Below are positions 7,295 to 53,256 of a stretch of 64,000 nt of DNA, piece after piece. The notes below the pieces were generated by a model that did not search any database, had not been told where the DNA came from, and saw only the letters and a program-made list of their open reading frames with translations. The position numbers and the translations under genes were made by a program. The stretch spans positions 1 to 64,000 of the forward strand of contig NZ_JAGGPQ010000024.1 in the NCBI RefSeq assembly GCF_018613675.1, read 5' to 3'. The DNA is from Arthrobacter sp. ISL-85 (GTDB lineage: Bacteria > Actinomycetota > Actinomycetes > Actinomycetales > Micrococcaceae). Position 1 is the first letter of the stretch, and every line of letters begins with the position of its first letter.

Positions 7295-7540
7295 CTAGGC
7301 CACGGAGGAAACGGCCAACAGTGCGAGTTCCTCGATCTTGTCGGGGCGGAAGCCTGACCAGTGGTCCTGGTCGGTGACCACAACGGGAGCCTGCATGTAG
7401 CCCAATGCCTTCAGGCGCTCGAGTGCCTCAGCGTCCTGGGAGATGTCAACGCTCTGGTAGGTGATGCCCTTCTTGTCGAGCGCGCGGTAAGTGGCGTTGC
7501 ACTGAACACAAGCAGGCTTCGTGTAAACCGTTACGGTCAT
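7295..7540 (-). CDS. nrdH: NrdH glutaredoxin-like electron donor
   Basis: NrdH is the small redoxin that passes electrons from thioredoxin reductase to NrdE. The 81-residue protein has the signature CVQC at residues 11-14, the cis-proline region MQAPVVVTD, and the typical C-terminal [12 protein letters not shown] that replaces glutathione-binding residues. It is the first gene of nrdHIEF and follows a promoter region with a strong palindrome. An AGGGG ribosome site lies about eleven bases upstream of the ATG. Confidence 0.97.
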
Positions 7541-7604
7541 TGTCCCTGTCCCCTTAGTTGAAATCTTTGCTGGTTCGGTGTCCCCCGTCCAGCTGTATGT
7601 AGAT

Positions 7605-7616
7605 ACTACATGTAGT
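7605..7616. promoter_or_regulatory. Palindrome upstream of nrdH, candidate NrdR box
   Basis: The perfect 12-base palindrome ACTACATGTAGT lies 64 bases upstream of the nrdH start. Its core CTACATGTAG resembles the NrdR-box consensus CWATATWG known from other bacteria. NrdR is the ATP-cone repressor of nrd operons, and its boxes usually occur in pairs. A weaker partner, ATTACAAGTAT, lies about 44 bases further upstream. The nrdR gene is not in this window, so the assignment is inference. Confidence 0.55.
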
Positions 7617-7822
7617 GCAGACGCCTCTTTGGAACCCCAAGATGATGTATTACAAGTATGTCATTTAATGCACCGTTAATCCACAGGCAGGGGCCCGAAT
7701 ATTGCCCGCGATCCCGGGTTTTTTGGGGACTGGATCCACACCCTGTGGATGGGGTTGAACACATATGCACAGTCAGCGTGTCGTGATCCTCGGCGTGTCG
7801 CCGCATGTTCCCCGGCCATACA

Positions 7823-7864
7823 AAAGGGGTCCGTGACCACTACATGTAGTGGTCACGGACCCCA
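7823..7864 (-). terminator. Rho-independent terminator of the cfa operon
   Basis: A perfect palindrome of 38 bases (7827-7864, arms ggggtccgtgaccac and complement) is followed on the minus strand by TTTTGT, the layout of an intrinsic terminator. It stops transcription coming from the lipid-modification operon before nrdHIEF. Its centre is ACTACATGTAGT, identical to the palindrome in the nrdH promoter region 234 bases away. Confidence 0.85.
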
Positions 7865-8057
7865 TGAGTCATTCCGGGCCCCCGGGACTGCGGCCCCGGC
7901 CCCGGCCCCTAAGCCCTGGCAGGATTAGCCCGCGTGGGGTTAAGCCGGGCGACGGCGGTGGACAGCACCGTGGCGAAGCAGCACCACGCCGTACGCGGAG
8001 CGAGCGATGCTCCGGCGGTCCCGTTCAGCCGGTACGTCCGCCGCAACCTGGAGCAAA

Positions 8058-32607: not shown

Positions 32608-32786
32608 CGGTGACCTCCTCGTCAACGCGTCCCGCGGGCCCCGCTTTGGGTGAAAGCGGCCGGCCGACGGGACGATGTGCCCTCAGTCTCCAGTTGTACC
32701 CCCGTTTGACCTGCGCGGGAAGTCTTTGGGCCGCTGCCTGGGAGTTTTCACCGCGGGATCCTGTTTCCCGCAGCAAACGACAAAGG

Positions 32787-32817
32787 GAACCATCACTGAG
32801 TGATGGTTCCCTTTGTT
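32787..32817 (-). terminator. Terminator of the first tRNA-Ala gene
   Basis: A stem of AAAGGGAACCATCACT paired with AGTGATGGTTCCCTTT spans 32780-32817 and lies just after the 3' end of the tRNA at 32829 on the minus strand. The T-rich closing arm ends CCCTTTGTCGTTTG on that strand. This is a typical tRNA transcript terminator. Confidence 0.7.
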
Positions 32818-32828
32818 CCTTGCACCGG

Positions 32829-32901
32829 TGGAGCTGAGGGGACTCGAACCCCTGACCCCCTGCATGCCATGCAGGTGCGCTACCAGCTGCGCCACAGCCC
32901 C
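32829..32901 (-). tRNA. tRNA-Ala (anticodon GGC)
   Basis: The 73-base gene folds as a standard cloverleaf. The acceptor arms are GGGGCTG and CAGCTCC with discriminator A, the D-arm reads GCGCAGCTGGTAGCGC, the anticodon stem-loop is CTGCATGGCATGCAG with anticodon GGC, and the T-arm contains GGTTCGAGTCC. CCA is not encoded. It lies downstream of a second identical gene about 200 bases away and just before its own terminator. Confidence 0.97.
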
Positions 32902-33101: not shown

Positions 33102-33174
33102 TGGAGCTGAGGGGACTCGAACCCCTGACCCCCTGCATGCCATGCAGGTGCGCTACCAGCTGCGCCACAGCCCC
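33102..33174 (-). tRNA. tRNA-Ala (anticodon GGC), identical copy
   Basis: This gene is identical over its 73 bases to the tRNA at 32829-32901, including the anticodon loop CATGGCATG. The flanks beyond about two bases differ, and each copy has its own terminator. The two copies have the same polarity and probably arose by tandem duplication. CCA is not encoded. Confidence 0.97.
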
Positions 33175-41107: not shown

Positions 41108-42646
41108 TCAGGAATGCAGCCTCGGCGCGTCGAAGAATTCCACTTCCAGGCGGCAGGACTGTTTGAACGCGGTTACCATCGCCTCCCTTTCATGGTCGGA
41201 GGCCTTCCGGCCTGCTGCGTCCACAATGGCGACGGCCTGGCGGGTGGCTTCGGCAAAGCCTTCGTCCGCGTACGTGCGGAGCCAGGCCGCGTAGGCATGC
41301 CCGTCAGGCTCGCCGGCGGCAAGGAACCGGGCGTGCAGCTTGTCACCGACCTCGGCGTAGAGCCAGAAGCAGGGCAGGACTGCGGCGGCGAGGACCGCGT
41401 AACTGCCCGACGCCGACGCGGCAGTGAGGTGGTCCACGTAGGCCTTGGTGACCGGGCCCAGTCCGCCCTGCGCCGGACGGGTGCTGAGCCATGAACGGTG
41501 CAGTTCCGACTCCACTTCAAGGCACTGCCGTGCGGACCCGGCCCAGAACAGTTGCTCCGCCTCGGAGGGTGCCAGAGCGCTCGTCCGGGCAAGCACCCGG
41601 GAGTAGCCGTTGAGGTACAGGGCATCCTGGGCCAGGTAGTAGGCAAATTCCTTCTCGGCAAGGTCATCGGAAGCGAGGCCGTGAATGAAATCCAAGGCGT
41701 AGATGTCAGCGAGGTCCTGCTGCGCTTCCGCCCACAGACGGGCAGCGAAACCGCCTTCCGCCAGCGCCTGGCGCACATGGTGGAAATGGTGCACTGGGCC
41801 GTTTCCCCGGCCCACCTCAAGCTGACCGGAGTTTTCCAGTGCGCCGGCCAGCCAGGGCTTGACCGTCCGGAGCGACGCCTCCCAGTCTCCGGAGCGTGCC
41901 TGGACGGTGGCCATCGCAGAGGACAGGGAACAGCCGGTCCCGTGGCTGTTGCGGGTGACGACGCGCTTGCCCTGCACCTCTACCACTTCGTGCGACAGCA
42001 GGCCCGCGGTGTTCACCAGCGCGTCCGGGCAGTCTGCACCGGCCAGATGGCCGCCCTTGACCAGCACGGTGGCCCCCGTGGCATCCGCGAGGCGCCTCCC
42101 CTGCTCCAGTGCAACGGCCCAGCTCTCCGCAGGGTCCCCGCCCACAAGCATGGCCAGCTCCGGGAGGTTCGGAGTGATGAGATGGGCCAGCGGCAGCATT
42201 TCGCGGAGGGCTGCCTCGGCGGATTCCTGCAGCAGCCGGTCACCGCTGGTGGCCACCATCACCGGATCCAGGACCACGACGGCGGGACGGACCTTCTCGA
42301 GCCACTCGCGGACAGTGCGGATCACGGCCTCGTCCCCCAGCATGCCGATCTTGACAGCGTCGATGGAGATGTCGTCGCTGACAGCATCCAGCTGCTGGGC
42401 CAGGAAGTCGGCTGGAGGAACGTGGACCGCCTGCACGCCACGGGTGTTCTGTGCCGTCAGGGCGGTAATGACCGCCATCCCGTATCCGCCATGGGCAGCA
42501 ATGCTTTTGAGGTCGGCCTGGATACCCGCGCCCCCGGAGGGATCGGAGCCCGCTACGGAAAGGACGCGCGGGACCTCCCGGCCGGCGGGCGGCGCGGCGG
42601 GAACCTCGGAGGCAGCTGGCAGGGGCATGGAAAGGGTCGAAGACAA
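41108..42646 (-). CDS. thiD: Bifunctional ThiD-TenA fusion (HMP-phosphate kinase / thiaminase II)
   Basis: The N-terminal half is ThiD, which phosphorylates hydroxymethylpyrimidine and its phosphate; it has [45 protein letters not shown] and [12 protein letters not shown]. The C-terminal half from about residue 290 is TenA (thiaminase II), which salvages the pyrimidine from degraded thiamin, with [20 protein letters not shown] and [18 protein letters not shown]. The gene follows a TPP riboswitch. The TTG at 42646 has AAGGGA six bases upstream; an internal ATG at 42628 lacks a ribosome site. Fused thiD-tenA genes are also found elsewhere. Confidence 0.95.
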
Positions 42647-42647
42647 G

Positions 42648-42735
42648 AGACATCCCTTCGCCGGTACTAGCCGGACAGGTTCAACGGGTCTGGATCTCAG
42701 CCGGCCTTTGCGCGGCACCCCGTGTCGGCTTCCAG
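42648..42735 (-). promoter_or_regulatory. TPP riboswitch (THI element)
   Basis: Read on the minus strand, the conserved TPP core is present: GGGTGCCGCGCAAAGG, GGCTGAGATCCAGACC, CCGTTGAACCTGTCCGG and CTAGTACCGGCGAAGGGA. Binding of thiamin pyrophosphate stabilises the closed form and shuts off expression. The AAGGGA at the 3' end is also the best ribosome site for the TTG start of thiD-tenA, so control is probably translational. Confidence 0.95.
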
Positions 42736-49863: not shown

Positions 49864-52800
49864 CTAGGCCTCCACTTTTTCGACGGCGACGGCGGGTTCG
49901 GCCACGTCGGCCGGCTCAGTGTTCAGGTCTACAGTCAGCGTCTCACCCTTGACCAGTTCAGCATTGGCCGCCAGGGCGTCCACCACGTTCTGTGCGGCGG
50001 TGACGGTGGTCCGGATCCGGTCACTAACGTTGAGCCCGGCGTCCTTCCTGGCCTGCTGGATGGCACGGACCATGTCGCGTGCCAGGCCTTCGGCCTCCAG
50101 TTCGGGGGTGACTTCGGTATTGAGGACCACGAACCCGCCTCCGGGCAGGACGGCAACAGCGGCGGAGCCGCCCTCGGATTCTGCCACCACCGTCTCCAGC
50201 GTGTATTCCTGGGGCTCCAGCTGGAGCCCCCCGGACGTGACCAAACCGTCGTCGTCCACTGACCAGTCGCCGGACTTCGAACCCTTGATGGCCACCTGGA
50301 CGTTCTTGCCCAGGCGCGGACCGGCGGCACGGGCGTTCACCACCAGCTTCTGCTGGATGCCAAACTCCTCCGGGGAAGCGGAGGCGGCGTCCAGCAGGCG
50401 GACGGAGCGGAGGTTGAGTTCATCGGCGACGACGGCGGCGAAGCCTTTCAGCACATCCGCGCCGGGTGCCACCACGGTGAGTTCCTGCAGCGGCAGGCGG
50501 ACGCGCAGGTTGGCTGCCTTGCGGAGCGAGGAACCGGTGGAGCAGATCTGCTGTACCCGGTCCATGGCTTCCACCAGCGACGGATTCGCGGGGAAGAGGT
50601 CGGCATCGGGCCAGTCGGCCAGGTGCACGGACCGGCCGCCGGTGAGGCCGCGCCAGATCTCCTCGGAGACCAGGGGCAGCAGCGACGCGGCGGCCCGGGT
50701 AACGGTCTCCAGTGCGGTGAACAGTGCATCGAAGGCGTCCTGGTCCTCGTCGAAGAACCGCTGCCGGCTACGGCGGACGTACCAGTTGGTGAGCATGTCC
50801 AGGTAGCTGCGCAGCGAGTCGCAGGCACCGGAGATGTCATAGGTGTCCAGCTGCGCGGTCATGGCGCGGACCAGGTCGCCGGTGTTGGCCAGCAGGTACT
50901 GGTCCAGGGTGTCGGCATAGCCGTCGTAGCGGAGTTTCGCGTCGTAGCCCTGTCCTGCGGCAGCTGCGTTGGTGTACAGCGCGAAGAAGCTGTACACGTT
51001 CCAGAGCGGCAGGATTACCTGGCGTACACCGTCGCGGATGCCCTGCTCGGTGACGATCAGGTTGCCGCCGCGCAGGATCGGGCTGGACATCAGGAACCAG
51101 CGCATGGCGTCGGAGCCGTCACGGTCCAGGACCTCGGACACGTCAGGGTAGTTGCGCAGGCTCTTCGACATTTTCTGGCCGTCGGAGCCCAGCACGATGC
51201 CGTGGCTGATGACGTTCCGGAACGCGGGCCGGTCGAACAGCGCCGTCGACAGGATGTGCAGCATGTAGAACCAGCCGCGGGTCTGCCCGATGTACTCCAC
51301 GATGAAGTCGGCCGGGTTGTGGGTGTTGAACCAGGCTTCGTTCTCGAACGGGTAGTGCACCTGGCCGTAGGGCATGGAGCCGGAGTCGAACCAGACGTCC
51401 AGGACGTCCTCGACGCGGCGCATGACCGACTGGCCTTCCTCCGGGGTGCGGGGATCGTCCGGGTTGGGCCGGGTCAGCTCGTCGATGAAGGGCCGGTGCA
51501 GGTCCACCTCGCCGTCCTTGTTCAGCGGCAACCGGCCGAAGTCAGCCTCGATCTCCGCGAGGGAGCCGTAGACGTCGGTCCGGGGAAAGTTCGGATCGTC
51601 CGACTCCCACACGGGGATAGGGCTGCCCCAGTAGCGGTTGCGGCTGATGGACCAGTCGCGGGCGTTTTCCAGCCATTTGCCGAACTGTCCGTCCTTGACG
51701 TTGCCGGGGATCCAGTTGATCTCCTGGTTCAGCTCGGACATCCGGTCCTTGAACTTGGTCACTTCCACGTACCAGGACGAGACGGCCCGGTAGATTAGCG
51801 GGTTGCGGCAACGCCAGCAGTGCGGGTAGCTGTGTTCGTAGCTGGCCTGGCGAACTAAACGGCCATCAGCACGGAGCACCTGCGTGATCGGCCTGTTGGC
51901 CTCGAAGACCTGCAAGCCCACAATGCTCGCAAGTCGTCCGTCCTTGAAGAATGATAAGAATTTCGCCCCTTCGTCAACGGACAGAATGACGGGAATGCTA
52001 TTCGCCTCGCAGATCCTTTGATCATCTTCACCAAATGCCGGCGCCATATGGACAATGCCGGTGCCGTCCGTCGTTGTTACGAAGTCATCCACGAGGATCC
52101 GGAACGCATTTCCGATATGGCGAGTTTTGAATAGCGGCTGGCGTCCTGCCGATGTCGGAGGGACGTAATCTACAACTTCTGTCATGCCTAGCGCGTAGTT
52201 GCGAAGGTCGTTCCACAGTGGCTGGTACTCGAGGCCTTCCAGCTCCGCGCCGGCATGGGTGGACAGGACTGCGGCTTCCGCGTCCTCGAAGCTGTCGTAG
52301 CCCAGGTCCTTGGCGTAGCTGCCCAGCAGGTCCGCTGCGAGCAGGAAGCTGCCCGCCACCGGGGCGTCGGCGGAGGCTGCCTTGATGCCGTTGGGTCCGG
52401 CGGGCAGAACAGCGTAAGTGATGGAAGGCCCGACGGCGAGCGCGGCGTTGGTGGGCAGCGTCCAGGGGGTGGTGGTCCAGGCGAGGGCCTGCACGCCGGC
52501 GAGTTCCTTTGACAGGTCCGACCCGCCCGCGAGGATGGGGAACGTGACGGTGACGGTCTGGTCCTGGCGGTTCTTGTAGACGTCATCGTCCATGCGCAGT
52601 TCATGGTTGGACAGCGGCGTTTCGTCCTTCCAGCAGTACGGGAGGACCCGGTAGCCGTTGTACGTCAGGCCTTTGTCGTGCAGCTGCTTGAATGCCCAGA
52701 GCACAGACTCCATGTACTCGACGTTGAGCGTCTTGTAGTCGTTGTCGAAGTCCACCCAGCGTGCCTGGCGGGTGACGTAGCTGCGCCATTCGTCTGCGTA

Positions 52801-53256
52801 CTTCATCACGGAGGCGCGGCAGGCATCGTTGAACTTGTCAATGCCCATGGCTTCGATCTGGGTCTTGTCCGTCATCCCCAGCTGCTTCATGGCTTCAAGC
52901 TCGGCGGGCAGTCCATGGGTGTCCCAGCCGAAACGGCGTTCCACGCGCTTGCCGCGCTGGGTCTGGTAGCGGCCCACCAGGTCCTTGGCGTAGCCGGTCA
53001 GGAGGTGGCCGTAGTGCGGCAGGCCATTGGCAAAGGGCGGGCCGTCGTAGAAGACGAATTCGTTGCTGCCGGGCTCGCCGCCGGGAACGTCGGCGCTGCG
53101 CTGGTCAATGCTTGCCTGGAAGGTGCCGTCCTGGTCCCAGTACTTCAGGATGCGCTCTTCGATCTCCGGAAACTTCACGGAGGCGGAAACGCCGGCTCTG
53201 CCGCTGGAAGCGGTACTGGAGGCTGAGGCCTTGGGGTAAAACGTCATGTTCGACAT
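49864..53256 (-). CDS. ileS: Isoleucyl-tRNA synthetase IleS
   Basis: IleS charges tRNA-Ile and edits valine. The 1130-residue protein has HYGH at 81-84 (class I HIGH) in [25 protein letters not shown] near residue 695, a CP1 editing domain between about 210 and 480, and a C-terminal anticodon/extension domain as in actinobacterial, eukaryotic-like IleS enzymes. A segment encoded at about 51860-52200 (within editing-domain and adjacent parts) has much lower GC than the rest. The ATG at 53256 or one three codons inside could start translation. A T-box leader precedes the gene. Confidence 0.96.

Follow-up and report, generated by a model that had tools for sequence, protein, structure and literature searches.

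The ileS gene of Arthrobacter sp. ISL-85 is very probably a mosaic, in which related DNA of lower GC content replaced ∼366 to 464 bases in frame by homologous exchange. The gene lies on the minus strand at 49864-53256 of the window (the whole 64-kb stretch of DNA analyzed) and encodes an isoleucine-tRNA ligase of 1130 aa, as assigned from the open reading frame, Pfam PF00133 and NCBIfam TIGR00392, for which the product scored 785 bits against a cut-off of 621.4. The canonical HYGH motif could be read in the translation, and since the best solved matches by sequence and by fold were mostly eukaryotic or type 2 enzymes, the product looks IleRS2-like. The predicted model of residues 226-505 (mean pLDDT, 86.6) resembled IleRS structures as well as isolated editing domains, among them 1wk8 and 1ue0, and the WTTTPW motif, a His and an Asp of the CP1 editing fold were found as invariant columns of an alignment of 41 sequences (A2). 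The replaced tract aligned to the same isolated editing domains and falls within CP1 in the model, confirming its expected place in the editing region; going by these alignments and the predicted model, it makes up the second half of this post-transfer editing domain.

A drop in GC content to ∼53% within an intact reading frame had drawn attention to this part of the gene in the original prediction, and both features proved real. In sliding 300-bp windows, GC content was 0.533 at 51900-52199 and 0.62 to 0.70 clear of the dip up to ∼52700, in keeping with the ∼65% given for both sides, and the frame was open throughout the 1130-codon ORF. A milder dip, to 0.58 at 52600-52899 (residues 121-220), is shared with the relatives and is therefore intrinsic. 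The shift was pronounced at third codon positions, with a GC3 of 0.63 at residues 353-462 versus 0.88 at residues 1-352 and 501 to the end, and none of 20000 resamplings that preserved the amino acids reached 0.63. Codons enriched in residues 353-462 include ATT, ACA, GAT, CTA, AGG, and TTA; ATA-type strings were also said to appear there, but these residues contain no ATA codon.

To place the borders, we took as reference the 12 closest relatives fetched (L004-L015), which also served for the identities and synonymous differences given below, and fitted two change-points to private sites, that is, positions at which ileS differs from all 12. The fit returned a core at 51855-52220 on the minus strand (residues ∼346-468) with a gain in lnL of 76.6 and 3-lnL border ranges of 52219-52257 and 51831-51858; private sites made up 64 of 297 within the core and 65 of 3012 elsewhere. 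A raised synonymous difference marks a probable tail of the imported tract at 51757-51854, to residue ∼500, so that the tract would measure between ∼366 and 464 bases. The extent proposed at first, 51860-52200, was therefore nearly right at its borders, but the divergence runs on past its 3′ end. A small second cluster of private changes was found at residues 550-559 (51580-51609, minus strand), where 8 of 30 sites were private and four of about five synonymous codons differed (mean, 0.78 versus 0.31 among relatives). The import event may have left this cluster as a further patch; discontinuous donor segments lying near one another are described for Bacillus subtilis transformation (PMC13344027).

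Nucleotide identity to the 12 relatives was 0.66 to 0.75 at residues 341-460, 0.83 to 0.85 at residues 461-500, and 0.97 at residues 501-520, and the relatives themselves were 0.91 to 0.94 alike within the bins of residues 341-520 where these could be aligned (0.91 to 0.93 at residues 341-460). The remaining bins of the gene gave identities of 0.75 to 0.98, including two other low 20-codon bins at residues 541-560 (0.75; 0.91 among relatives) and 761-780 (0.75; 0.82 among relatives). Counted at codons whose amino acid agrees, the synonymous difference from the relatives was 0.55 at residues 346-449, 0.38 at residues 450-500, and 0.16 at residues 501-549, with 0.24, 0.16, and 0.12, respectively, among the relatives. 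Over the long flanks it was 0.22 upstream and 0.24 downstream, and the relatives differed mutually by 0.21 to 0.22. The divergence is thus limited to one sharp-bordered tract and includes synonymous sites, as in a mosaic allele, and the synonymous change together with the shifted composition argues for import and not for fast evolution of the protein.

The tract also brings an extra loop of 23 aa at residues 360-382 (52111-52179, minus strand; net gain, 22 residues), seen in the alignments and in the genus search and mostly of low confidence in the predicted model (pLDDT below 50 at residues 359-379). Because of this net 22-residue insertion, the alignments among the matches listed in a genus-wide blastn search end at gene position ∼1044-1064 (∼52200) or begin at ∼1129-1177. 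When residues 352-424 were searched against 206 genomes of the genus, 203 matched, the ISL-85 genome included, and the long loop was found in ISL-85 alone, with a score of 157.9 bits that spans query residues 1-73; the runner-up among the matches listed reached 64.7 bits and began at query residue 31, beyond the loop. The same segment in all close relatives with a congruent tree had been named as the outcome that would point to an intrinsic constraint, and the blastn search, the alignment and the genus search agree that close relatives do not carry it.

Trees of the flanks and of the tract gave different placements. Protein trees were built from 47 of 54 chosen rows, the other 7 being duplicates or outside the filtered set of 163. 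In the flank protein tree (457 columns, 47 rows), ileS falls within the 17-row set of its own genus (support, 98), the sequence of G125, a genome of another genus, groups with three members of its own genus (98), and that of G168, from a third genus, groups with its congener G114 (98); this tree came from a quick search and was not optimal, a constrained tree being 15.65 lnL units higher. Grouping ISL-85 with G125 is rejected on the flanks by the AU test with both protein (P = 5.65e-07) and DNA (P = 2.1e-4). In the tract trees (residues 377-462), by contrast, ISL-85 and G125 are sisters with supports of 96/95 (protein) and 96/92 (DNA). The AU test on the tract (80 protein or 240 DNA columns) rejected neither the placement of ISL-85 in its own genus (P = 0.198 for protein and 0.28 for DNA) nor that of the G125 tract in the genus of G125 (P = 0.185), which we attribute to a short tract with long branches. 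The comparison of segment and flank phylogenies proposed at the outset therefore yields topologies that differ with support, but the incongruence rests on those topologies and the other evidence and not on the tract-only test. In the DNA tree the G168 tract is sister to that of G114 (98/95), and the protein tree unites it with those of G114 and g26 (85/86).

Long-loop tracts are rare in the family. We searched 395 family genomes with a profile built from the three long tracts (A1); 390 matched, and only three carry such a tract, one in each of three genera: ISL-85, G125 (1 of 7 genomes sampled in its genus), and G168 (1 of 3). These three scored 217 to 223 bits over the whole profile, and the next best scored 156.3 bits at positions 33-118 only. 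Loci L177 and L215 represent the G125 ileS and loci L178 and L213 the G168 ileS, each with a divergent long-loop CP1 tract.

Change-point fits on mismatches to one congener each placed the tract at residues 330-449 in ISL-85, 237-445 in G125, and 270-445 in G168, with lnL gains of 66, 40, and 133, respectively; a control pair of normal genes gave 12, elsewhere in the gene. The downstream change-points of the three genes are nearly equal (residues 445-449). Over residues 300-339, G125 resembles its congener about as much as the two control genes resemble each other, which leaves ∼340-445 as the clear part of the G125 tract, nearly that of ISL-85. The synonymous difference between G125 and G225 was 0.59 inside the tract versus 0.36 and 0.41 outside, with 0.39 versus 0.31 and 0.36 for the control pair G225-G211, and the G125 tract has little GC contrast with the rest of its gene. 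G125 is a good parallel to the ISL-85 tract. For G168 and G114, the synonymous difference was 0.62 inside versus 0.22 and 0.16 outside, identity falls from ∼0.92 to 0.56-0.69 in the tract apart from one five-codon bin at 0.80, and tract GC content was 0.51 to 0.64 in 25-codon bins versus ∼0.70 for the gene. The case is less clear for G168, which we held back from counting as a third clear import given that its tract stays near G114 in the tract trees. Between tracts, the synonymous difference was 0.70 for ISL-85 and G125 and 0.57 for ISL-85 and G168. The value of 0.70 means that the shared source is not recent, and comparison of these sequences would make the ISL-85 and G125 tracts either old imports or separate ones whose sources were related without being identical.

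We scanned 154 of 158 family ileS sequences for excess divergence, leaving out L020, L257, L258, and L293, none of which contains a complete ORF; L293 is a filler of 200 bases. Windows above 0.10 occurred in 17 of the 154. ISL-85, L177 (G125), L178 (G168), and L190 (G114) had at least two of them in CP1; a single window exceeded this value within CP1 in L184 and elsewhere in L236 and L242, and the windows of the other ten sequences lay at the C-terminal end, from residue 990 onwards. Under a stricter threshold of 0.15, CP1 windows remained only in ISL-85 and L178, and L032 and L306 had one window each at residue 1080. Excess divergence above 0.10 in at least two windows was therefore confined to CP1, the C-terminal end apart. 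These two or three events, in a scan of ileS alone, suggest CP1 as a hotspot of exchange.

They also lend something to the idea, compatible with import, that CP1 segments circulate as a selected module that alters editing or evades an inhibitor or attacker, an idea that we consider unlikely. That a single domain saw two or three events and that the excess is restricted to CP1 speak for it. Against it, with conserved blocks flanking its variable middle CP1 would be a hotspot passively, the tract leaves the conserved editing residues as they are and mupirocin acts at another site, and we know of no agent that targets the CP1 editing domain in this family. A more specific version, in which long-loop CP1 alleles of an unsampled lineage replaced the second half of the domain two to three times in the family, at almost the same border downstream, and were favored through changed proofreading or interactions, appears just as doubtful.

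An assembly chimera, in which reads from another organism were merged with the contig inside a homologous gene, is very unlikely. The ISL-85 assembly has 38 contigs and a completeness of 90.25%, and 92 of 100 congeners are at 99 to 100% completeness, which leaves some room for such an error, but the frame is open, the tract lies well inside a contig of 208510 bases, and similar tracts occur in G168 and in G125, an assembly of 2 contigs that is 99% complete.

Fast evolution of CP1 within the lineage, through relaxed constraint or diversifying selection with an insertion of its own and no import, would agree with the variability of the domain, whose window divergence was 0.93 to 2.0 times that of the flanks at residues 240-450 (window 360 not computable), with the nonsignificant AU tests on the tract and with the continued pairing of the G168 tract with G114. 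We regard it as highly improbable all the same, since the 2.5-fold synonymous rise in the tract is not a product of selection on the protein, GC3 falls sharply, and the tract and its loop resemble those of G125, a different genus. An old polymorphism, with the long-loop form ancestral in the family and lost except in three scattered genomes, is extremely improbable: the strong differences among the three tracts argue against one recent copy and the G168 tract pairs with its congener, as this reading would have it, but carriers in 3 of 390 family genomes and three genera would demand very many losses, each bordered inside one gene, and the flanks of ISL-85 and G125 go with their own genera whereas their tracts go with each other.

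Import by recombination with a lower-GC relative, as originally predicted, is favored by the synonymous excess, the low GC3, the insertion unique in the genus and the shift in placement. The part of the prediction that concerns the donor fared less well. The suggested search for the closest donor gave, among the loci listed, a best partial match of 79% over 43 residues, in Arthrobacter mangrovi. No donor at high identity was found in the family, order, class, named genomes, plasmids, phages, or viral contigs, the group searches being samples, so that one may exist, and no copy of the ISL-85 insert was seen in 78 of at least 80 loci from 500 relatives (L065 and L067 outside the 78). Neither the order search (390 of 396 genomes matching) nor the class search (384 of 394) gave, among the matches listed, a nonfamily score near those of the long-loop tracts; in the class search, the distant G1109 aligned from position 5 with 60 bits. 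In the order search, G546, G736, G580, and G494 matched from the first residues onwards, but their alignment shows the short form and they were dismissed as carriers. The tract trees place ISL-85 and G125 among family sequences, so that the donor was probably an unsampled, lower-GC member or neighbor of the family, its lower GC being deduced from the tract alone given that no donor was found.

Mobile elements offered no better source. Plasmid origin was rejected, with two blastn records, which lie towards the conserved end of the tract and cover 36% and 21% of it, and 187 tblastn records, every one below 60% identity. Phage origin was rejected as well, with 13 records, none reaching 80% query coverage, as was origin from viral contigs, where two loci matched, at 60% and 52%. 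Loci L163 and L164 are IMG/VR contigs from one metagenome with an IleRS-like ORF of 1046 residues and are possibly bacterial contigs filed as viral.

A plausible course of events can be drawn from the borders. The lineage of the species would have taken up DNA from a family member or neighbor with lower GC content and a longer CP1 loop, and RecA-type strand exchange would have been anchored at a conserved block downstream and resolved upstream, in a variable stretch. A conserved block of 26 residues (residues 465-490; 51787-51864, minus strand) sits just past the downstream borders, near the change-points at residues 445-449, and is a possible recombination anchor. One homologous anchor and a poorly matching end would fit homology-facilitated illegitimate recombination as reported (PMC3240628), whereas the in-frame replacement in ileS fits ordinary homologous exchange equally well. 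The product would combine a native threonine-rich strand with an imported His/Asp half and an extra flexible surface loop.

The imported tract contains a 10-residue segment with the conserved His403 and Asp412 (52021-52050, minus strand), which align with H178 and D187 of A2, two columns without variation, and are unchanged in ileS. The native, threonine-rich half of the editing pocket, WTTTPWTLP (52453-52479, minus strand), corresponds to invariant columns W35-L42 of A2, and residues 260-269 are identical to L004 (identity, 1.00). From the IleRS editing literature, we take both His403/Asp412 and WTTTPWTLP to have a part in editing. A native WTTTPWTLP together with an imported His/Asp pair makes for a chimeric pocket that is probably active. 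The chimera probably retains editing of Val-tRNA(Ile), as judged from sequence conservation, and altered editing through the tract, which had been raised, is possible.

An altered response to mupirocin had been proposed along with it and was not supported. Mupirocin binds the synthetic site, whereas post-transfer editing takes place in CP1 (PMC4861432). The HYGH motif is canonical, and the product scored 637.5 bits with NF000257 (MupA) and 594.8 bits with NF000258 (MupB), far below the cut-off of 1900. We therefore dismissed mupirocin resistance as a consequence of the tract.

Mosaic core genes are a known kind of event. A study on introgression between Campylobacter jejuni and C. coli (PMC3139442) likewise describes parts of core genes that come from the other lineage while the rest is the host's own. 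Those two species differ by ∼15%, with a known donor population; the ileS tract, by contrast, is 25 to 34% divergent from close relatives, adds a loop and comes from an unsampled donor. Pneumococcal pbp genes are likewise core genes made mosaic by interspecies recombination, with drug selection reported as established (PMC6861860), whereas ileS has no known selective agent. Horizontal movement of ileS itself is described together with mupirocin-resistant IleRS2 (PMC4861432 and PMC10485003), and the enzyme studied here looks IleRS2-like, its HXGH motif being canonical; in that spread whole genes move and the synthetic site is concerned, whereas here a part of the editing domain was swapped. Our literature search, in the parts of the sources it covered, returned no IleRS editing-domain mosaic in actinobacteria, which does not prove their absence.

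New here are the extra loop, the presumptive chimeric pocket for editing and a parallel case, of unsampled source, in at least one further genus. Actinobacteria would thus be able to exchange, across ∼30% nucleotide divergence, one half of an essential enzyme's proofreading site, loop included. As natural chimeric editing domains with native counterparts, the parallel tracts would be usable for comparing proofreading under selection with tolerance, and ileS as a marker can mislead trees.

Across the 64 kb, 300-bp windows with a GC content of 0.55 or less form six listed clusters, two of them overlapping. GC content alone was rejected as evidence of import, as three of the four other low-GC places aligned fully to relatives (identity, 0.85 to 0.98) and one aligned over 32 to 33%. 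In a control for low identity, restricted to windows whose flanks aligned to relatives, 44 of 1945 windows in 11 clusters had a best identity of 0.75 or less; the lowest, 0.08, was in the cluster of the ileS tract, and the lowest of the other clusters was 0.59. One such low-identity cluster (32641-32850) lies in the area of two tRNA genes on the minus strand (32829-32901 and 33102-33174), which have equal Rfam scores and are 273 bases apart. Rfam RF00059 matched at 42636-42732 (minus strand) with 60.5 bits and marks a TPP riboswitch there. The lowest 300-bp GC content of the window (0.503) belongs to 7353-7895, which reaches from inside small ORFs into the region upstream and aligned over its full length in three relatives; one small ORF there (7295-7540, minus strand) presumably encodes a glutaredoxin.
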